Assembly (NCBI GenBank): GCA_022561975.1
Contig: JADFQD010000010.1
Location: 1-44,433, forward strand
DNA length: 44,433 nt
Source of the DNA: Acidobacteriota bacterium
GTDB lineage: Bacteria > Acidobacteriota > Thermoanaerobaculia > Multivoradales > JAHEKO01
Reading direction: 5' to 3'
Below are positions 23,327-35,910 of the stretch, in pieces. Position 1 is the first letter of the stretch. The number at the start of each line of letters is the position of its first letter. The translations under genes were made by a program, and so were the position numbers. The notes under the pieces are model-generated. The model was not told where the DNA came from. It made no database searches and saw nothing but the letters and a program-made list of their open reading frames with translations.

Positions 23327-24401
23327 GAAGCTCGCATTCGACGCCGTGCTCTTTACCACGGTGCTGGTCCTCGTGGGTTTCGGCTTGACTGCGGTCTATT
23401 CGGCCAGCGTTGCCACGGCGCAAAATCAAGGCTCTGAGAGCGCGCTGATGGTGAAACAGTTTTTTGCCGCGGTGGTCGGCATCCTCCTCATGTGGATCCT
23501 GATGCATTTCGACTATCAACTGTTCGGGCGCAAGCCGGTCGTTTGGAGCCTGTTCGCGCTTACCGTGGCGTTGTTGCTCCTGGCGCTGCTCTCGCCGACG
23601 CTCAACGGCACCAACCGTTGGTTGATCATCGCCGGAATGTCGTTTCAACCGTCGGAGCTGGCCAAGTTCGCCCTGGTGCCTCTGCTGGCATATCAGTTGG
23701 CAAAGACGGACACGCTGCGCGACAACCGGAGGTTCGTCTTGCCGGCGATTCTGACCGCAGGAAGCCTGGCGACTCTCGTGCTTCTGGGGCGTGACCTCGG
23801 CACCGCGGCCATGCTGATCGCGATGACCGCTCTGCTGCTTTTCTTCGCCGGGCTTCCGCTGTGGCGCATTCTCGCGGCGGCAGCACTGGTGGGTCCTCTG
23901 GTGGCGGCGGCAATCTACTTCGAGCCCTACCGAAGGGCTCGTTGGCTCGCCTTCCTCGATCCCGCGGCCGATCCTCTGGGTACCGGGTTTCAGGCCTTGC
24001 AGTCTTTGATCGCCGTTGGTTCCGGAGGAATCTTCGGCCTGGGCCTCGGGCAGGGCTTGCAGAAACTACACTTCCTGCCCTATCCGCATTCGGACTTCGT
24101 ATTCTCGATTGTTGCCGAGGAACTCGGACTCCTCGGCTGCTTGATCCTGGTAGCGCTTTTTGGCGTGCTTCTATGGCGCGGCGCCCGCGCAGGTCACCGG
24201 GCCCCGGACGCCCTGGGCCGCTACCTGGCTTGGGGTCTCACCGGTGGGCTTTGCGTCCAAGCTGCCATTCATATGAGCGTTGCTCTGGCCCTGCTTCCGG
24301 CGACCGGTATCACTTTGCCGTTTGTTTCGTACGGCGGGTCCTCGCTGGTCGCGAGCCTGGCCGCGTCCGGAGTGATTCTGAACGTGTCACAGCATGCATG
24401 A
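23319..24401 (+). CDS. ftsW: FtsW, septal peptidoglycan glycosyltransferase (SEDS family)
   Basis: FtsW polymerises lipid II at the septum together with FtsI. This 360-residue protein has about ten membrane helices and SEDS signatures: NGTNRWL...FQPSELAKFALV (about residues 91-115), GRDLGTA, and the C-terminal TGITLPFVSYGGSSL. ATG 23319 is chosen because AGGAG lies just ahead of it and the protein then begins MAKKLAFDAVLF. The frame stays open upstream inside murD, with ATGs at 23280 and 23289 as alternatives. It overlaps murG by 8 bases. Confidence 0.96.
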   Translation: MAKKLAFDAVLFTTVLVLVGFGLTAVYSASVATAQNQGSESALMVKQFFAAVVGILLMWILMHFDYQLFGRKPVVWSLFALTVALLLLALLSPTLNGTNRWLIIAGMSFQPSELAKFALVPLLAYQLAKTDTLRDNRRFVLPAILTAGSLATLVLLGRDLGTAAMLIAMTALLLFFAGLPLWRILAAAALVGPLVAAAIYFEPYRRARWLAFLDPAADPLGTGFQALQSLIAVGSGGIFGLGLGQGLQKLHFLPYPHSDFVFSIVAEELGLLGCLILVALFGVLLWRGARAGHRAPDALGRYLAWGLTGGLCVQAAIHMSVALALLPATGITLPFVSYGGSSLVASLAASGVILNVSQHA

Positions 24402-25590
24402 TGAAGATCGCGGCAAGCGCCAAGAGTCGATCCACATCCTCATGGCGGGGGGCGGGACCGGGGGCCACGTGTATCCGGCGCTGGCAATTGCAGCCGAGCT
24501 TGCCGAGCGAGGTAACTTGGTGAGCTGGATCGGACGCCCATCGAGCATGGAAGAGACGCTGGTGCGTGCGGCCGATGTTCCGTTTCACACGCTCGAAGCC
24601 AAGCCATGGGTGGGCAAGGGGCTTGCCGCGAAGGCGGGGGCGGTCGCGACCCTGATGGCCTCCAGCCTGCGGGCACGGAGCCTGGTGCGCCGGCTCGCTG
24701 CGGACGTCGTTCTGGGCACCGGCGGCTACGTCTCGACACCGGCACTTCTTGGCGCGAGGCTGGCCGGGCGGCCGGTGTTCTTGCTGGAGCCCAACGCCGT
24801 CGCGGGGTGGGCCAACCGGATCGCCTCGAGGTGGTGTAAGGCAGCCTTCGTGGCTCATGAGGATGCCGCTCGGCTGCTCGCGTGCGAGACCGTCGTCAGC
24901 GGGACTCCGGTGCGCAGGAGTTTTCACGAGGTCGATCCGCTACCGGCCCAGGATCCACATCTGCTGGTCTTGGGAGGCAGTCAGGGAGCGGTTCAGATCA
25001 ACGACGTGATGCCATCCGTCGTGCGCCGCCTCTCGAGCGCAGCCGGCCTGGCTGGTTTGAGTATCACGCACCAGACCGGGCGTGCAGACCTCGCGTCGGT
25101 ACGGACCGCGTATGCTGATCTCGGGATGGCTGATCTCGGGATGGCCGATCTCGGGAGGGTCCAGAGCCCGAAGCTCGAGCCTATGGTCGAGCCTAGGGTT
25201 GAGCCGACGGTTGAGATAGTGCCGTTCATTGACGACATGGCAGCGGCCATGGCCAAAGCCCAGTTGGTGGTTTCGAGAGCGGGCGCCCTGGCGATAGCGG
25301 AACTCGGCGCTGCCGGGCGTCCGGCAATCCTGATTCCCTTGACCGCAGCCGGAGCCGGGCACCAGAGATTCAACGCCGAGCGGATGGCGGATTCCGGCGC
25401 CGCCGTGGTCCTGGCCGGCGAGGAGGTCACAGCCAAGAACTTGGGAGACACGATCGCACAGCTCTTGAGCGATCGCCCCCGGTTGGAGTCGATGGCGTTG
25501 TCGGCTCGGTCGCTGGCAAAACCCGCGGCGGCGGCGGAGATTTCCGAAGCTCTCGAGCGAGCCGCCAGGACGCAGAGGGGTGCCGCCTGA
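24394..25590 (+). CDS. murG: MurG, lipid II-forming GlcNAc transferase, with repeat insertion
   Basis: MurG adds GlcNAc to lipid I, completing lipid II. N-terminal motif AGGGTGGHVYPALAIA (about residues 18-33), GTGGYVSTPALLGA, EPNAVAGWANR, LGGSQGAVQIND and SRAGALAIAELGAAGRPAILIP identify it. The 398-residue length is somewhat above the usual 355-370. Part of the excess is an insertion at about residues 239-275, just before VPFIDDM, built from tandem repeats: ADLGM three times, then EP(M/R/T)V three times. The insertion lies in the C-terminal UDP-GlcNAc domain in a loop. It ends TGATG, sharing one base with the murC start. Confidence 0.96.
   Translation: MHDEDRGKRQESIHILMAGGGTGGHVYPALAIAAELAERGNLVSWIGRPSSMEETLVRAADVPFHTLEAKPWVGKGLAAKAGAVATLMASSLRARSLVRRLAADVVLGTGGYVSTPALLGARLAGRPVFLLEPNAVAGWANRIASRWCKAAFVAHEDAARLLACETVVSGTPVRRSFHEVDPLPAQDPHLLVLGGSQGAVQINDVMPSVVRRLSSAAGLAGLSITHQTGRADLASVRTAYADLGMADLGMADLGRVQSPKLEPMVEPRVEPTVEIVPFIDDMAAAMAKAQLVVSRAGALAIAELGAAGRPAILIPLTAAGAGHQRFNAERMADSGAAVVLAGEEVTAKNLGDTIAQLLSDRPRLESMALSARSLAKPAAAAEISEALERAARTQRGAA
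25114..25215 (+). repeat. In-frame tandem repeats inside murG
   Basis: Three copies of a 15-base unit (GCTGATCTCGGGATG and near-copies) run from 25114 to 25158. A short spacer follows, then three 12-base copies of the GAGCCTATGGTC type from 25177 to 25212. Both keep the frame and lengthen one loop of MurG. They look like minisatellite expansions from replication slippage. Confidence 0.85.
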
Positions 25591-26999
25591 TGTTTAGCCG
25601 TTTCGCGGACCTTTCGAACGTTCATTTCATCGGCATCGGTGGCGCCGGGATGAGCGGCATCGCGGAGGTTCTTACGGACTACGATCTTACGGTCACCGGC
25701 TGCGACCTGCGCGAGAGCGAGGCGACGCTAAGGCTACGCAAGCTCGGGGTGAAAGTCGAGATCGGCCATTCGCCGGCGCATCTCGATTCGGTCGACCTGG
25801 TGGTGGTGTCGTCAGCGATCGACGAGGCCAACGTCGAGGTCCGAGGAGCGCGCGAGCGAGGCCTCACGATCGTACGCCGAGCCGAGATGCTGGCGGAACT
25901 GATGCGTCTCAAGTATGGAATCGCGGTGGCCGGCACTCACGGCAAGACCACCACGACATCTTTGATCGGGACCGTGCTGACCGAGGCCGGCCTGGATCCG
26001 ACGGTAATTGTCGGCGGCCGGCTGCGAGTTTCCGGCACCGGTGCCCGGCTGGGCCATAGCGATTACCTGGTTGCGGAGGCCGACGAGTTCGACCGGAGTT
26101 TTCTCAGGCTGCAGCCGATCCTGGCGGTGGTGACCTCGATCGATACGGATCATCTGGACACCTATCGAGATCTCGATGATATCTGCGATGCCTTCGTTCG
26201 ATTTGCTTCGAAGGTGCCGTTTTTCGGCGAGCTCATTGTCTGTCTGGACGACCCCAACGTCCGCGCGATTCTGCCGAGATTGAGCGACCGGCGGACACTG
26301 ACCTACGGCTTCTCGCCGCACGCCGAATTGTCGGCTCGAGACCTCGAATTCGTCGACGGGGGAGCGAGGTTCACCGTGCACTCCGCCACCGACGGACGGC
26401 TCGGCTCAGTCAGGATCCCGCTGCCGGGACGACACAACACCCAGAATGCGCTGGCTGCAATAGCCGTCGGCCGGGCCGTCGGTCTCGACTTCGAGCAGAT
26501 CGCCTCGGCGCTGGAGAAGTTTTCCGGCGTTCATCGTCGCTTCGAGCGCTTGGGAAGTTGGCACGGCGCGGAGGTGATCGACGACTACGCCCACCATCCA
26601 ACCGAGGTGGCGGCGACGCTGGAGGCCGCCCGCTCGGCGTTCCCCGGCAGAAAATTGCACGTTGTCTTCCAGCCGCACCTCTTCAGCCGCACGCGGGATC
26701 AGGCGGAGGCGTTCGGCCAGGCGTTGCTGGCTGCCGACCATGCCATAGTGACCGAGATCTATCCGTCCCGAGAGGCGCCCATCGAGGGGGTGAGCAGCAC
26801 TCTGATCTCCGACGCTGCCAGGCGAGTCGGCCATCCAAAGGTGGAGGACGCGATGGGGTTTGTGGAGGCGAGAGCACAGCTCGAGTCCGCGGTTGATCCC
26901 GGCGCCGTGGTGATTACCATGGGGGCCGGCGATGTGTATCGACTCGCCGCCGAGCTGGCTGCGGAAGGCGCTAAGGAACGAGCGGAGGAATCCGCGTGA
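25590..26999 (+). CDS. murC: UDP-MurNAc:L-alanine ligase MurC
   Basis: MurC adds the first amino acid to UDP-MurNAc. The 469-residue protein shows HFIGIGGAGMSGIAEVL at the N-terminus and the ATP site AGTHGKTTTTSL (about residues 114-125). EADEFDRSFL, RRFERLG, DDYAHHPTEVAATLEAAR and FQPHLFSRT follow, all MurC signatures. It starts in TGATG with murG and ends in a GTGA overlap with ftsQ. In many bacteria murB and ddl follow murC; here ftsQ follows directly. Confidence 0.98.
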   Translation: MFSRFADLSNVHFIGIGGAGMSGIAEVLTDYDLTVTGCDLRESEATLRLRKLGVKVEIGHSPAHLDSVDLVVVSSAIDEANVEVRGARERGLTIVRRAEMLAELMRLKYGIAVAGTHGKTTTTSLIGTVLTEAGLDPTVIVGGRLRVSGTGARLGHSDYLVAEADEFDRSFLRLQPILAVVTSIDTDHLDTYRDLDDICDAFVRFASKVPFFGELIVCLDDPNVRAILPRLSDRRTLTYGFSPHAELSARDLEFVDGGARFTVHSATDGRLGSVRIPLPGRHNTQNALAAIAVGRAVGLDFEQIASALEKFSGVHRRFERLGSWHGAEVIDDYAHHPTEVAATLEAARSAFPGRKLHVVFQPHLFSRTRDQAEAFGQALLAADHAIVTEIYPSREAPIEGVSSTLISDAARRVGHPKVEDAMGFVEARAQLESAVDPGAVVITMGAGDVYRLAAELAAEGAKERAEESA

Positions 27000-27850
27000 G
27001 CGATCGACTGAGACGACCGCCGCTGCCCATGCCCGAGCTGGAGCACTTTCGCCGGCGTCAGTTCGTCTCGCGACATCGCCGCCGAAAGCTGATCTTCCGG
27101 TTGGCCCGGCCCTTTCTGGCGGCCGTAGCGATCGTCGGGCTGCCGAGCGCGCTTGCCGGGTGGATTCTTCTTTCGGACCAATTCATCGTGCAAGAGGTGA
27201 GCGTCGCGAGCACCCGAAGGGTGTCCGCGTCCTGGGCCGAGCAGCGACTCACACCACTGGTCGGGAAGCACCTCTTCGCCGTGGATCTGCGCGACGTGGA
27301 AGCGGCGCTCGCCGACCACAATTGGGTCAGCGGGGCCCGGCTCAGGCGGTGCCCGCCCAACCGCTTGGAGGTCGAGATTCTGGAGAAAGACCCGGTCGCT
27401 TTGATGGTGCAGGGCGAGAGTCTGGCGTACTTGGATCCGGCCGGTCGCGTCATAGGGCCTTTCGATCCGAATGATCCGAGCATCGACTCGGCTGACTTGG
27501 TCTTGATGTCGGCTCCGCAGGACCGGTTGGACCTGGTCGCCAGCGGCCTCGCTTTGCTCGACTCATGGCGCCGAAAGCGGCTGCCTTTCAGCGAGGGTTT
27601 GTCCGAGATCAGCGTTTTGACGTCGACCGATTTTCGGGTGATCACAGCAGGTTTGCCATTTCCGATCTTTGTGTCCTCGCTGAACCTGGCCGACGGACTT
27701 GCCTCGCTGGTCCGGTACGGTCCCCAGCTCGAACGACGATTATTCCGGCTGTCTCCAATCGGAGCGGTCGATCTGAGATTTGGTGGACGAATTGTGTTTC
27801 AACCGGCGGTTCCGAAGCCGCACAACCTGGAGGGCCAAAGAGATGCCTAA
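26996..27850 (+). CDS. ftsQ: Cell division protein FtsQ/DivIB
   Basis: This is a bitopic divisome protein that holds FtsL/FtsB. The 284 residues contain a basic cytoplasmic tail (HFRRRQFVSRHRRRK) and a membrane helix (about 38-58). A POTRA domain follows (about 62-130, FIVQEVSVASTRRVS to RRCPPNRLEVEILEKDPVALM), then the FtsQ beta domain to about 265. The GTG start overlaps the murC stop (GTGA). It overlaps ftsA by 8 bases. Confidence 0.93.
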   Translation: MSDRLRRPPLPMPELEHFRRRQFVSRHRRRKLIFRLARPFLAAVAIVGLPSALAGWILLSDQFIVQEVSVASTRRVSASWAEQRLTPLVGKHLFAVDLRDVEAALADHNWVSGARLRRCPPNRLEVEILEKDPVALMVQGESLAYLDPAGRVIGPFDPNDPSIDSADLVLMSAPQDRLDLVASGLALLDSWRRKRLPFSEGLSEISVLTSTDFRVITAGLPFPIFVSSLNLADGLASLVRYGPQLERRLFRLSPIGAVDLRFGGRIVFQPAVPKPHNLEGQRDA

Positions 27851-29081
27851 GCCGAGTTCCCGCACCGTTGTCATCGACATCGGCTCATCAAAAGTCGGTG
27901 TCTTGATCGGTCAGGCCAATGAGCATGGCTTCATGGAGGTCGTGGGCAAGGGCTACGCCGCCAACCGAGGCACGCGCAAGGGGCACGTTGTCAATGTCGA
28001 GGCCACGGTCGCCGCCTTGAAGAAAGCTTCCGAAGAGGCCGAGGTCATGGCCGGCGTCGAGGTCGATCGCGCCTACGTAGGCATGGCGGGCACCGATGTG
28101 CGCTGTGTCAATTCGCGCGGAATGGTTTCGGTGGCAAGAAAGAACCGAGAGATCAATCGCCTCGACATCGAGCGAGTGCTCGAGGCCGCGCAGGCGGCGG
28201 CGCTGCCCTCGGATCGAGAGATCCTTCATGCTATTCCCCAAGAATTCATCGTCGACGAGCAGGGGGGCATTGCCGATCCGCTCGGAATGACGGGCTCGCG
28301 GCTGGAAGTGGCGGTGCATCTAGTGACCTGCAACACGACGCGCTCGAAGACGCTGCTCACTTGCGTCAACCGTGCCGGTATCGAGGTCGTCGAGATGGTG
28401 TTCGAGCCGCTTGCGACCGCCGAGGCCGCGCTGACTCACGACGAGCGGGAACTCGGCGCTCTGCTGCTCGATATCGGCTCGGGAACCACCGAGTATGCCT
28501 ACTTCTCAGAGGGCGAAGTCCGGCACAGCGGCGTGTTGCCGATGGGATCAGGGCACTTCACCAACGACCTCGCGATGGTGCTGCGCACGCCCTTTGCCGA
28601 GGCCGAGCAGATCAAGGTGCGCTACGGATGCTGCCTGGCCGGTATGCTTGGCGAAGAGCAGGGGATCTCGATTCCGGCGGTTGCGGGTGGTCCACCGCGG
28701 GTGGTCCCGAAGGCCGAACTCTGTCAGATCCTCCAGCCGCGGGCGGAAGAGATTCTGACGCTGGTGCGCAACGACCTGATACGTTCGGGAATGGAAGCGG
28801 ATTTGCGCGGCGGCGTGATCTTGACCGGCGGCGGTGCCCAACTCGACGGCTTGCTGGAAATGGCGGAGCAGATTTTCGATACCGGCGTGCGCTACGGTCT
28901 ACCCCAGGGATTGGGAGGGCTGGTGGACGTCATCAGCTCGCCGATCTGGACGACGGCTTCCGGCCTCCTGCTCTACGGGCAGGCCACTGAGATGAGCAAG
29001 CTGCGGGCCTCCAAGAGCAAGGGCTCCTCCATCCGGGCCGTAGTCGGCAGCTTTAAAGAAATGTTTTCGGATTTACTGTGA
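27843..29081 (+). CDS. ftsA: Cell division protein FtsA
   Basis: FtsA is an actin-like ATPase that ties FtsZ filaments to the membrane. The 412-residue protein has [14 protein letters not shown] at the N-terminus, the second phosphate-binding motif [15 protein letters not shown] near 202-216 and [15 protein letters not shown] near 320. A C-terminal amphipathic helix ([17 protein letters not shown]) is the membrane-targeting sequence. ATG 27843 is preceded by GGAGGG and fits family N-termini; the frame is open further upstream inside ftsQ. The next gene, ftsZ, follows after 28 bases. Confidence 0.97.
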
Positions 29082-29109
29082 TGGACTCAGTCTTCAAAAG
29101 GAGCACGTC

Positions 29110-30420
29110 ATGATTCTATTTAGTGACCAAGACTTGGGCAGCGAACTACCGATCACGTTAGAGGAAGATATCGTGCCGGCTCGGATCAAGGTTATCGGGA
29201 TTGGTGGCGGTGGCGGCAATGCGGTCGATCGCATGATCGACTCGCGTATGGGCGGTATTCAGTTCATTGCCGCGAACACCGATCTTCAGGCCTTGAGGAA
29301 GTGCCGGGCCCCGGAGAAGATCCAGCTCGGAAGTTCCCTGACCCGAGGCCTGGGTGCGGGCGGTAACCCCGAGATCGGGCGCAAATCCGCTCTCGAGGAC
29401 ACCGACCGGATTTTGGAGCTGCTTCAGGGCACCGACATGGTGTTTCTGACCGCAGGCCTCGGTGGTGGCACCGGCACCGGTGGGATACCGATTGTAGCTT
29501 CGCTGGCGGCGGAGATCGGAGCGCTGACGGTGGCGGTCGTGACCAAGCCTTTCGCGTTCGAAGGTCGCCGCAGAATGGAGCAGGCCGAGCGTGGCCTCCA
29601 AGAATTGGAAGAGGCGGTGGATACGTTGATCACCATTCCCAACGAGCGCCTGCTCAGCTTCGTCGAGCGGGGCACGCCCCTGTCCGAGGCCTTCCGCATT
29701 GCCGACGACGTGCTGCGACAGGCGGTCCAGGGCATCAGCGACTTGATCACCGTCCCGGGCGAGATCAACGTGGATTTCGCCGATGTCAAGACGGTGATGA
29801 CCGGCATGGGCATGGCGATCATGGGTACCGGAGTCGCCAGGGGAGAGAACCGAGCCGTCGAGGCCGCACGGAGCGCGATCTCCTCGCCGCTTCTCGAGGA
29901 GACGTCGATCGAGGGTGCGCGCGGCGTCCTGCTCAATATTTCGGGAGGTCGCGATCTGGCGTTGGACGAGGTCGCAGAGGCGGCGCGGGTGATCTCGGAT
30001 GCCGTCGATCCGGATGCCCACATCATCTCGGGGATGGTGATCGACGAGTCCCTCGAGGACGAAATGAAAGTCACGGTCATTGCGACCGGTTTTGCCGGCC
30101 GCGAACGGACCCCGACCGAAAAGCCGCTGGCAGGGCAGGACGACTTCTTCAGTCCGCAGCCATCGGCTGGCGGCGCGGGTGCCGCTGCCTCCGCCGACTC
30201 CAAGCGCAGGGCGCCAAGAGTGGCTCGGTCGCTCGGAGAGACCGAGCTGCGGCCTCGGGCGCAAGCCAATCAGCCGCGACCCGAGCCGCCCGAGAAGGTG
30301 CCCTTCTACCGCAAGGTCATTGCGCAAACCCGAGGTGAAGATCCCGGAGGCTTCGGTCCGAACTGGTCGAATGTCGATGATTTTGACATTCCCACGGTGC
30401 TGCGCAAGCAGATGGATTAA
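29110..30420 (+). CDS. ftsZ: Cell division protein FtsZ
   Basis: FtsZ is the tubulin-like GTPase that forms the Z-ring. The 436 residues carry a short N-terminal extension (about 25 residues), then [22 protein letters not shown](L)QAL, and the tubulin signature [11 protein letters not shown] near 115-125. The T7 loop reads [12 protein letters not shown] disordered Pro/Ala/Arg linker (about 345-400) leads to the C-terminal peptide [14 protein letters not shown], which binds FtsA. Its own strong ribosome site (AAAAGGAG, 9 bases from ATG) is set apart from the overlapping genes upstream. That allows higher FtsZ synthesis than its neighbours. Confidence 0.99.
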
Positions 30421-32414: not shown

Positions 32415-33077
32415 TTAGGCCGAAGATCGAACGTCCGATCGCGCGCCGGGGGGCAGGGTCTCGCCTTCGCTCGCCGGCGCTTGCAAAAGGTACTGGACGT
32501 CCTCGAGGAAGGTCTTCTTCTCCTGCGCTCCGAGGTAGGAGGAGTAGATCAGCCCTTCCCGGTCGAGGATGAAGGTCATCGGGTAGCCTTCCAACCCGCC
32601 GAACATTTTTGTCGAGACGGCCGCCGGGTCGAGGAGAACCGGGTAGGCCATCGCCAGTTTCTCGGCGTACGGGCGGACGATGGCCAGCCCTTCCTTATCG
32701 GTAGAGATCCCGAGGATTGCGAGCTCCCCGGCAGGGATTTCCCGTCGGAGCTGGTTCAGCTCGGGGATCTCGCTGCGACAGGCGATGCACCAAGTGGCCC
32801 AGAAGTTGAGCAGCACGACCCGGCCCCGGTGATCGCTCAGCCGGTGAAGCTCGCCGTCGAGACCCAGAAGCTCAAAGTCGGGGCCGGGCAGCAAACGGGC
32901 CGCCGAACGGGCGTCGATCGCCTGCTCTGGGGGCTCCGGCAACTCAGCCGGCCGGGCGGTCCTTTCTCCACCGCAGCCAAGGCCGGCGAACACCAGGACC
33001 ATCGGTAGTAGAGCGAGAGGCGTCCAACCCGGCCTAGCGATCGGCAGCCGCGGCCTCCCGTTCGCGATGCAGCTCAT
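32415..33077 (-). CDS. TlpA/ResA-like thioredoxin-fold lipoprotein
   Basis: This is an extracytoplasmic thiol-disulfide oxidoreductase. A signal sequence ends in lipobox GLGC (C35), followed by a Pro/Ala linker and a redoxin domain. The active site reads WATWCIAC near residues 92-99, with LLNFWAT before it and the cis-Pro region GYPMTFILDREG near 164-175. TlpA/ResA proteins reduce cytochrome c apoproteins or copper-centre thiols. Its start overlaps the end of the DUF3179 gene by 44 bases, so the two are made together. This context suggests it may keep the DUF3179 partner's Cys or Sec residues reduced. Confidence 0.88.
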   Translation of the reverse strand: MSCIANGRPRLPIARPGWTPLALLPMVLVFAGLGCGGERTARPAELPEPPEQAIDARSAARLLPGPDFELLGLDGELHRLSDHRGRVVLLNFWATWCIACRSEIPELNQLRREIPAGELAILGISTDKEGLAIVRPYAEKLAMAYPVLLDPAAVSTKMFGGLEGYPMTFILDREGLIYSSYLGAQEKKTFLEDVQYLLQAPASEGETLPPGARSDVRSSA

Positions 33078-33750
33078 CGATGGTACCGGTCATCTCGCCC
33101 CGACCCTCGCAGTGCGCGCAGGTCAGCACCAAGGTCTCCGGGTGCTGTTGTCGCCACTCGCCCCAGCGAACGACGCCCCAGGCTTCGGCGGGCAGCTCTT
33201 CCAGCTTCTGCCCTCGGCGCGCACCCTCCAAGCCCTCTCCCGAACTCTGCAGCCAGAGCGAGTCGCTCTGTGTGTCGTACATCACCAAGTTGCCATCGAC
33301 CAGTTTGCCCGACACCCCGAGGGTCAGCTCCTTCCCATCTACGCGGCGGTCGTGAACCACGACCGATTGTTCGGAAGGTCACCACGATGCCGCGATCGGC
33401 ACCCCCCCCAGCGTATCGTTGACGATCTGGTGGTTCTTGAGCACGTAGAGAGGGTAGGCGCGGTGAATGCCGCCGAGGCTGACCCCGACCACGCTGACGC
33501 CGCTCGCGAGGCCGGCCTCCGCGCCGGTCACGAACGTCGGACGGACGAGGGCCAGTTTGGCGTCTCGGGCCCGGTATTCGAGCAGGCCGTGAAACGCCTC
33601 GCCGCCGGTGATCGTGAGCTCTTCGGCGGCGTCCGCGGCCGGCTCTGCCGTCGAATCCTGGGCCTGGCTGCAGGCCGGGATTATCAGTAGCCCCAGCAAC
33701 GCGAGCGTGGCGGCGGTGAGCCATCTTCTGTTTCCGGATCGTCTGCTCAT
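33034..33750 (-). CDS. DUF3179 family lipoprotein, candidate selenoprotein (in-frame TGA)
   Basis: The frame runs for 239 codons, interrupted only by TGA at codon 124 (33379-33381). Signal peptide with lipobox IIPAC is followed by the DUF3179 core: YPLYVLKNHQIVNDTLGGVP, then W-TGA-PSEQSVVVHDRRVDG, then SGKLVDGNLVMYD...DSLW. In the family the TGA position is the first Cys of a (W/Y)CPxC motif; the second Cys is Glu here. Thirteen bases after the TGA a perfect 8-bp hairpin has loop GTT, 21 nt from TGA to loop, as in bacterial SECIS elements. A CAHC pair near the C-terminus could be a redox partner. Selenocysteine at 124 is inferred; a nonsense-mutated pseudogene is the alternative. The start ATGA overlaps the CRTAC1 gene stop. 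Confidence 0.65.
33347..33365 (-). promoter_or_regulatory. Candidate bacterial SECIS hairpin
   Basis: On the minus strand the arms CGGTCGTG and CACGACCG form a perfect 8-bp stem closing a GTT loop, beginning 13 bases after the TGA at 33381-33379. Known bacterial SECIS elements lie inside the coding region, with the loop about 16-37 nt after the UGA and a G in the first two loop positions. This hairpin meets those conditions. The sequence also encodes conserved residues (SVVVHDR), so chance folding cannot be ruled out. Confidence 0.5.
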
Positions 33751-35537
33751 CTTTGCGTCTCTTCTGTCGGTTGGTCTTCGCCCCAGGGTCGCGAAGGACG
33801 GGGTGCCGCTGGAACCTCCGTCCAGCCGCTCCTATCCTTCCACAAGCGTATACGCCTGTCGGCGCCAACCGGACCGGTTTCGGTGACCCCACCGCCCGGC
33901 CAGCGGACCTCGATCCGGCTCGCTTCGCTGGCGCCTCCGAGGCCGAAGTGGAGAACCGGCGAGTTCGACCCGGCCCAGCTTTCACCCACCAGCAGTTGGC
34001 GGATCTGGCTCTGCCCGCCGCTTTCAACCGTCACCTTGGCGCCCACCGCCCAGCGATTCGGCGCCTCGCCCACCAGCTCGATCTCCAGCCAGTGTCCCTG
34101 GACCGGCGAACGGTTGGCGAGTAGGAGAATCGGTCCGTTGTGGACCAGAACCGCGACATCGATCAGTCCGTCGCGGTCGTAATCGGCAAAACTGGCGCCG
34201 CGGCCGACGATCGGCGCCCCGAAGGCGGCCCCGGCCGTCGAGGAGACATCCTCGAAGCGGCCGTTCACGTTCTGATAGAGAAGCATCTTCTGAGGGATCA
34301 TCTTGGGGTCTCTCAGCACCTCGAGCGTCCACTCATCCTCGACGGTGGAGCCGTTCACGACCAGCAGGTCGTCGTCGCCGTCGAGTTCGAAGTCGAAGAA
34401 ACCGGTGCCCCAGCCGACCAGCGCCGGATCGATCGGCGCCAGGCGATGCTCGATCGTGGTGTCGGCGAAGAGCAGCAGTCCGTCCTCCGACAGGTTGCGG
34501 TAGAGGGCGTTGTCCTCGCCGACCCAGTGGGTGAGAAAGAGGTCGAGCCGGCCGTCCCGGTCATAGTCGGCGACGGCGGCACCCATGCCGGCGCGAGGGT
34601 CGCGGGTGCCGGCTTCGATCGAGACCTCCTCGAAGGTGCCGTCGCCCTGGTTGCGGTAGAGCCGGTCGAAGCTCTGGTCATTGCTGACATAGAGATCGGG
34701 CCAACCGTCGTCGTCGAAGTCGGCAAAGACGGCCTGGAGACCCCGCCCCGTGCTGTCCGCCAACCCCGAGCGCTCGGCGATCTCGGTGAACCGACCGCCG
34801 CCGTCGTTCTCGAAGAACAGATCCTGCTGGGGTGGGTAGTCGGCGGGGGTGGTCATGGTGGCGGGTCGCCCTCCCACCTCGGGCCGCTCGGGCACCCGGT
34901 CCCACGGAAAATCGACATAGCAGGGAACGTAGAGATCGAGGTCGCCGTCGCGGTCGAAGTCGGCGAGCGCCGGGCCGTTGGCGATGCAGTCGACCCGGCC
35001 GAGACCGGCGCCGACGCTGGCGTTCTCGAAGCTGCCGTCACCCAGGTTCCTGAACAGGACGATCTCGTCCAGGCCGGTGATCAGCAGGTCGAGCCAGCCG
35101 TCGCCGTCGACGTCCGCCCAGACGGCGCCGTTGTGCCAGCCGACGTGCTCGAGGCCGGCGGTAGTGGTGACGTCTTCGAAGGTGCCGTCGGCCAGATTGC
35201 GGAAGAGCTTGCCGCCGGTACGCTGGGCCAACTCTTCCCTCGATAACAGCACAGACCCGGCCAGGTTGGGGACAAAGAGGTCGTCGAAGCCATCGTTGTC
35301 ATAGTCGCCGAAGGCGAGTCCGGAGCCGTTGTCTTCGGGCAGGAGGGCGTTGCGGCGGTCGTTGAAGTGATGAAAATCGAGTCCGGCCTGGGCGGCGACC
35401 TCTGCGAAGACGATCGCGCCGGCGGGTGGCGAGGTGGAATCTACCGGGTTATCTCTGGCCGCCTCGTCTCCGCCGTTTCCAGTACACGCGAGGATGGCGA
35501 GCGGAACGAACACAGCGAGATAGCGAATCGCGCGCAT
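33747..35537 (-). CDS. CRTAC1-family FG-GAP/VCBS beta-propeller lipoprotein with ASPIC/UnbV domain
   Basis: A signal sequence with lipobox LAILAC precedes about seven calcium-binding FG-GAP/VCBS blades of the pattern (F/W)(A/G)DxDxDGxxDL. Examples are AFGDYDNDGFDDLF, VWADVDGDGWLDLL, ADFDRDGDLDLYV, ADFDDDGWPDLYV and ADYDRDGRLDLF. The C-terminal ASPIC/UnbV domain (HWLEIELVG...VGAKVTVESGGQSQIRQL...HFGLG) ends the 596-residue protein. Such proteins act outside the cytoplasm, probably in adhesion or as scaffolds. ATG 35537 is chosen because the lipoprotein signal starts there; an upstream in-frame ATG/GTG at 35591 would add 18 residues. It is the first gene of the minus-strand operon with DUF3179 and TlpA. 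Confidence 0.88.
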   Translation of the reverse strand: MRAIRYLAVFVPLAILACTGNGGDEAARDNPVDSTSPPAGAIVFAEVAAQAGLDFHHFNDRRNALLPEDNGSGLAFGDYDNDGFDDLFVPNLAGSVLLSREELAQRTGGKLFRNLADGTFEDVTTTAGLEHVGWHNGAVWADVDGDGWLDLLITGLDEIVLFRNLGDGSFENASVGAGLGRVDCIANGPALADFDRDGDLDLYVPCYVDFPWDRVPERPEVGGRPATMTTPADYPPQQDLFFENDGGGRFTEIAERSGLADSTGRGLQAVFADFDDDGWPDLYVSNDQSFDRLYRNQGDGTFEEVSIEAGTRDPRAGMGAAVADYDRDGRLDLFLTHWVGEDNALYRNLSEDGLLLFADTTIEHRLAPIDPALVGWGTGFFDFELDGDDDLLVVNGSTVEDEWTLEVLRDPKMIPQKMLLYQNVNGRFEDVSSTAGAAFGAPIVGRGASFADYDRDGLIDVAVLVHNGPILLLANRSPVQGHWLEIELVGEAPNRWAVGAKVTVESGGQSQIRQLLVGESWAGSNSPVLHFGLGGASEASRIEVRWPGGGVTETGPVGADRRIRLWKDRSGWTEVPAAPRPSRPWGEDQPTEETQR

Positions 35538-35910
35538 GGCTTTCTTGGGTCGAGGGTGCCGGCCGGCGTGGCCAGGCGGCGGGAACTCCACCTCGGGGAG
35601 GTGGGGAGCGCGAAGTATAGCGGCGAAGAGGCCGATCGACCGGGCAGGGCGCAGATTAGGTCCAATCCGTCGTCCCGTTCGGGCTGCACCCGTCTGGTAC
35701 CATTGGGTTTAGTGACCCCCGGAGAGTCGAACCAGGAGACAATCTCATGGGTAATGGCCGCCATCGACCCGGGCCAGAGCCGTCTCGAAGCGATGGCAAG
35801 CCGGTGGAACGAGTGCAGGGTGCTGATCGGAAGCGTGGTCGAGTCGTCGAGTCGTTGAGCTCGCCTGGGCCGGGGCCTGGAGGAAGAGCAAGCGGAGGTT
35901 TCATAGAGCC
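35538..35910. other. Intergenic region with promoter-like element and small ORF
   Basis: This 373-base gap separates the divergent CRTAC1 and SPFH genes. An extended -10, TGGTACCAT at 35695-35703, points right. A GTG-started frame at 35712-35858 follows (separate entry). A second, overlapping frame from ATG 35747 would give 55 residues rich in Arg/Pro/Gly with poor codon bias; I do not call it. GGAGG at 35894-35898 lies 12 bases before the SPFH gene's ATG. Confidence 0.5.
35712..35858 (+). CDS. Possible 48-residue small protein
   Basis: GTG 35712 opens a 48-codon frame ending at TGA 35858. It lies 9 bases after the putative -10 TGGTACCAT, so it would be a leaderless or near-leaderless message. 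From ATG 35754 onward the third codon positions are mostly G or C, as in the genome's real genes. The peptide (ending WNECRVLIGSVVESSSR) has no recognisable domain. It may be a true small protein upstream of the SPFH gene, or the region may simply be that gene's leader. Confidence 0.25.
   Translation: MTPGESNQETISWVMAAIDPGQSRLEAMASRWNECRVLIGSVVESSSR

Follow-up and report, generated by a model that had tools for sequence, protein, structure and literature searches.

A hairpin behind an in-frame UGA is very probably a bacterial SECIS element within the coding sequence of an Acidobacteriota DUF3179 selenoprotein

A hairpin downstream of an in-frame TGA was identified on the minus strand of a 44,433-nt stretch of DNA from an Acidobacteriota bacterium (contig JADFQD010000010.1, assembly GCA_022561975.1; the whole stretch is referred to below as the window), and it is considered, at a probability of roughly 0.95, to be a bacterial SECIS element located within the reading frame that encodes a DUF3179 selenoprotein. 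The computed support for this sequence-based reading comprises the reading frame, the conservation of the TGA, selection on the stem beyond that imposed by coding, the absence of the stem from Cys homologues, and the presence of selenocysteine (Sec) machinery. According to the proposed mechanism, a ribosome reaching UGA 124 would encounter the hairpin, whose stem begins 13 nt behind the UGA and whose apical loop bears GU, and the hairpin would bind SelB with Sec-tRNA(Sec); the UGA would then be decoded as selenocysteine, and the product would be a 238-aa exported protein carrying Sec in place of the first CPxC Cys of most relatives. Both SelB binding and actual Sec insertion are proposed here by analogy with the established bacterial mechanism.

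The gene extends from 33750 to 33037 (minus strand) and is followed by a TAG stop at 33034–33036; its frame is open over 238 codons with the TGA, read as U124, as the sole interruption. The translated protein matches PF11376 (DUF3179) with an E-value of 2.1e-42 over residues 68–212, on both sides of U124, and its score of 146 bits against a gathering score of 27 places it in this family; the match is confined to positions 7–150 of the 292 in the Pfam model, its first half. The N-terminus resembles a signal peptide or lipoprotein leader on reading of the sequence, and the protein is probably exported. The TGA itself occupies 33379–33381 (minus), at the codon of the first Cys of C-P-x-C in Cys homologues. 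It is followed by a 13-nt spacer (CCTTCCGAACAAT, 33378–33366, minus), the 5′ stem arm CGGTCGTG (33358–33365, minus), the apical loop GTT (33355–33357, minus), in which GU is invariant or nearly so in relatives, and the 3′ stem arm CACGACCG (33347–33354, minus), both arms being identified by sequence, folding and covariation.

The layout agrees with the preliminary description of this DNA, which had reported an in-frame TGA at 33381–33379, a perfect stem, a GTT loop with G first and a distance of 21 nt between TGA and loop: the TGA is read there on the minus strand, all 8 of 8 pairs form, the G opens the loop at 33357, and the distance matches. The bacterial SECIS consensus of Zhang and Gladyshev (2005), taken here from a review (PMC13188914), specifies a loop of 3–9 nt, an upper stem of 4–16 bp, a G in loop position 1 or 2, 16–37 nt from the UGA to the apical loop, and a minimum free energy (MFE) of −7.5 kcal/mol or lower. 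The window hairpin lies inside all of these limits, with a 3-nt loop, an 8-bp stem, a G at the first loop position (GTT here; GTN or NGTGN in relatives), a distance of 21 nt and an MFE of −12.1 kcal/mol. Of the limits that had been quoted for published models, the early G and the 16–37 nt distance stood, and the loop range of 3–14 nt is replaced by the 3–9 nt of the cited review. The conserved core excludes the innermost (eighth) pair and the 3-nt loop: a 7-bp stem forms the core of the family, and it is capped by a loop of 3 nt (GUN, 8 bp) or of 5 nt (NGUGN); most relatives, including the orthologues L021 and L022, have the 7-bp form with NGUGN. Two coupled loop forms were found, GTC GTG giving 7 bp with CGUGN and GTA/GTG GTY giving 8 bp with GUY, and both place GU near the loop start, as the model demands (PMC13188914).

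Taken by itself, the window hairpin is only mildly remarkable, and it is suggestive rather than conclusive. The window is GC-rich, and the peptide V-V-V-H-D by itself favors complementary codons; all 8 pairs survive in 2.9% of synonymous recodings of the window peptide and the lower 7 pairs in 18%. Dinucleotide shuffles had a mean of −9.1 kcal/mol and 27 of 200 were equally stable, so that the folding energy of the lone hairpin (z −1.14) was set aside as uninformative. On both strands of the window, 10 of the 1024 TGA trinucleotides precede an 8-bp Watson–Crick hairpin of fitting geometry. An Rfam scan of the window reported a tRNA-Met only, with no match at the hairpin.

The question is decided by comparison with homologues. 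A DUF3179 match was found in 60 of the 72 genomes of the order, and among named records a Thermoanaerobaculia MAG is the closest; a close-match pattern scan of the genome contigs returned one relative only. Five orthologues, 67–71% identical over both sides of the TGA, all carry it (5/5), and it recurs at the same codon in many more distant DUF3179 members. The comparison set consisted of 60 TGA and 54 non-TGA loci covering the site, obtained from searches of the order and the phylum with stretches fetched by place, and sequences after the site were aligned in an ungapped register. This register was taken from the window hairpin and was thus fixed beforehand for the other sequences. The genome that contains the window also holds a second TGA-bearing DUF3179 gene (L072, G000:C111:5100-6100; TGA at locus positions 484–482, minus), which reads UPLANTAVVYDRD, is about 35% identical and has the SECIS stem except that its fourth pair is a C.A mismatch, as well as a third paralogue (L073) with neither Cys nor TGA at the site.

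One alternative denies the hairpin any RNA function and derives it from the codons for S-V-V-V-H-D-R combined with high GC3. Valine codons (GTN) are indeed complementary to those of His (CAY) and Asp (GAY), and when synonymous codons were redrawn from pooled usage with the peptide of each gene kept, 306 ± 6.6 of the 413 stem cells (74%) in the TGA genes still paired. The observed number was 389 of 413 (94%), about 12.7 standard deviations above this null, with 39 complete 7-bp stems against 4.3 expected; the loci are related and the cell counts are therefore not independent, but compensatory pairs nonetheless occur in several distinct lineages. In non-TGA genes, 162 cells were paired against 164.5 expected, and complete stems numbered 0. 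Among the six members of the clade formed by the window gene and its orthologues, 42 of 42 cells were paired (33.3 expected), and by subtraction 347 of 371 were paired without them, against about 273. Where the peptide differs, pairing is restored by accompanying synonymous or residue changes: the stem is CGGTCGT/ACGACCG in this clade, CGGCTGT/ACAGCCG in L032, L059, L092 and L101, CGGGCAT/ATGCCCG with TAT for Tyr in L052 and L095, and CTGGCAT/ATGCCAG with AGA for Arg in L103 and L105. These comparisons make an origin of the stem from coding and composition alone highly improbable. A point against the SECIS reading is that 15 of the 59 distinct TGA sequences have a mismatch (C.A or G.A) at the fourth pair, where the encoded residues force it.

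Further measures agree with a SECIS function of the hairpin. The covariation score of 0.245 exceeded that of every shuffle (0.080 ± 0.009) and of every slid register, the latter being 26–48% paired; double-changed cells numbered 34 against 11 in shuffled data, and double (compensatory) changes were found at 5 of the 7 pairs. RNAalifold, unprompted, returned the same 7 pairs, and the stem codons +5, +6, +9 and +10 are identical in 74–88% of same-residue pairs, compared with 26–75% for most other codons. The preliminary description had held that the hairpin is kept although it must also encode conserved residues, and had named covariation confined to TGA members as supporting evidence. The first point is upheld by pairing above the synonymous null in TGA genes, and the second by compensatory and synonymous changes in TGA members, with non-TGA members at the null. 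Neither of the contrary outcomes it had named, stem pairs not conserved in other TGA homologues or an equally stable hairpin in Cys homologues, was observed: the pairs are conserved in the former, and the latter have no stem beyond chance.

A maximum-likelihood tree of 114 DUF3179 members places Cys genes inside Sec clades. L119 (Cys) groups with L103 and L105 (Sec) on a starred branch (100/100), and L067 (Cys) is the sister of L048 (Sec), also on a starred branch (100/99); the three Sec genes have complete 7-bp stems, and the stem is lost in both Cys genes. A separate Sec group, consisting of L099, L061 and L107, lies among Cys genes; L099 has the full hairpin, and in L061 and L107 2 of the 8 pairs fail in the ungapped register, and a one-nucleotide bulge would, judged by eye, bring most of the pairing back.

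Members without TGA at the site have mostly TGC or TGT, otherwise Ser, Asn, Asp or His, and never Trp. The members with Ser, Asn, Asp or His form a clade (L063, L066, L069, L070, L115, L117, L122, L123 and L126) that often retains the second Cys of CPxC, and this replacement, as read from the sequences, suggests a ligand or binding role at the Sec/Cys position beyond redox alone. The genome that contains the window (215 contigs, 87% complete) encodes a tRNA-Sec scoring 73.8 bits, with the anticodon TCA (UCA) according to ARAGORN, and a full-length SelB together with SelA and SelD; the tRNA and all three proteins are above curated cut-offs. Stem-loops that promote readthrough exist, and the UGA might accordingly be read as another amino acid, through Trp insertion or a suppressor, with the hairpin merely aiding readthrough; this is very unlikely given a homologous residue that is mostly Cys and never Trp, a dedicated Sec machinery in the genome, and a hairpin with bacterial SECIS geometry.

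Across the phylum, SelA was found in 252 of 396 genomes and is near-universal in the order. It is present in 21 of 23 hosts of TGA genes (p 0.002, uncorrected for relatedness), and since SelA is common, this co-occurrence is weak evidence; it was also rejected as a discriminator between Sec and Cys genes because hosts of Cys-type DUF3179 genes carry SelA too. One host of a Sec-type gene (G116, with L094), whose genome is rated 100% complete, has SelB and no SelA match, which would reflect either a gap in the assembly or a Sec synthase that has diverged.

The least credible alternative is that UGA124 is a true stop, with the gene broken or the upstream 123 aa as the product and the downstream frame as a remnant: standard ORF calling does split the gene at 33379, but TGA occupies the same codon in six orthologues, TGC or TGT stands there in most non-TGA members, and coding-like sequence is conserved on both sides, the codon-position differences among the six clade members being 0.25/0.20/0.52 downstream of the TGA, a third-position bias typical of coding sequence and similar to that found upstream (0.18/0.12/0.50).

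DUF3179 selenoproteins and bacterial SECIS elements have both been published, and the present case is no new kind of system. In one source (PMC9312934), DUF3179 selenoproteins (pfam11376) are listed with the motif UxxC/T and credited to Zhang and Gladyshev (2007). The published proteins share with the window clade the Pfam domain and the location of Sec at the first CPxC position, and other Sec genes of DUF3179 likewise proved to have a SECIS hairpin downstream. The motif differs: Sec is followed by U-P-S-E-Q-S in the clade, apart from U-A-S-E-Q-S in L018 (UPSE in 5/6, UASE in 1/6), so that Glu, not Cys or Thr, stands three residues after Sec. The clade is further marked by its half-model match, by an N-terminus read as an export signal and by a C-terminal CxxCxGxG, the last of these lying outside the motif as published; the C-terminus reads TLVL(T/R)CAHC(E/D)GxG, with CAHC(E/D)GxG invariant in the six members. 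Because domain and Sec position match, the protein is regarded as a DUF3179 selenoprotein whose motif differs. The modest novelty lies in the sub-clade, with its UPSEQ motif, its invariant CAHC(E/D)GxG and a trio of genes that is conserved. The CAHC(E/D)GxG segment (window 33037–33120, minus) resembles one DnaJ-type CxxCxGxG half-site. Among known elements, the SECIS of E. coli formate dehydrogenase is likewise a hairpin in the coding region, 3′ of the UGA, and has GU in a small apical loop.

The trio comprises the selenoprotein gene and its two neighbors on the same strand. Upstream lies a gene for an exported FG-GAP repeat/ASPIC-UnbV (CRTAC1-like) protein (33747–35591, minus; PF13517, PF07593), which is present in 5/5 orthologous loci at 57–63% identity. 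Downstream lies a gene for a TlpA/ResA-like thiol-disulfide oxidoreductase (32415–33077, minus; AhpC-TSA/Redoxin, E 1e-21), given here as the longest ORF, with a true start that may be at 33002; its product contains WCIAC, a CxxC motif, and in four of the orthologous loci it likewise adjoins the gene for the selenoprotein (61–65% identity). The order FG-GAP/ASPIC, selenoprotein, TlpA-like is kept in four loci, and in the fifth the contig edge falls inside the selenoprotein gene. The trio is situated just past a division and cell-wall cluster on the opposite strand (window 24394–30417, plus), in which Pfam identifies FtsZ and a MurG-like glycosyltransferase, and an ORF at 27780 looks FtsA-like by eye.

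No NCBIfam model matched the selenoprotein, and sequence and profile searches of the PDB yielded no credible relative. The core was modeled confidently by AlphaFold2, with pLDDT averaging above 90 in each block across residues 61–210, and the top Foldseek matches to it were all Rieske proteins (best E 0.02); a VIA-align comparison with Rieske gave Z 8.5 and an rmsd of 3.1 over 92 residues, a Z near the background stated for the tool. These structural matches hint at a Rieske-like predicted fold. Rieske homology by sequence profile was rejected: a PF00355 search gave no match in the selenoprotein, profile–profile comparison detected no similarity, first against 4 Rieske sequences and later against 40, and the cluster ligands CxH...CxxH are absent from its sequence. 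The protein may act in the periplasm as a redox protein together with the TlpA-like neighbor, and perhaps also with its own C-terminal CxxC. A more specific and rather doubtful proposal is that the UPSEQ clade is a distinct subfamily with Sec in a ligand-less Rieske-like beta-fold, the CAHC(E/D)GxG dithiol as its partner and recycling by the TlpA-like protein; if true, an exported protein that combines Sec with a distant CxxC would be a new arrangement.

Nothing of a new kind is added to the mechanism of selenocysteine insertion; what is gained concerns the gene and its family. An apparently truncated gene is very probably a full selenoprotein gene. A 2006 survey found only 4 selenoproteins, belonging to 3 families, in Acidobacteriota (PMC1794560), and DUF3179 selenoproteins now appear to be widespread in this phylum. 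With 60 homologues that have Sec and over 50 that do not, all from one phylum and including nested Cys genes devoid of the hairpin, the family provides an unusually clean data set for the evolution of SECIS elements.
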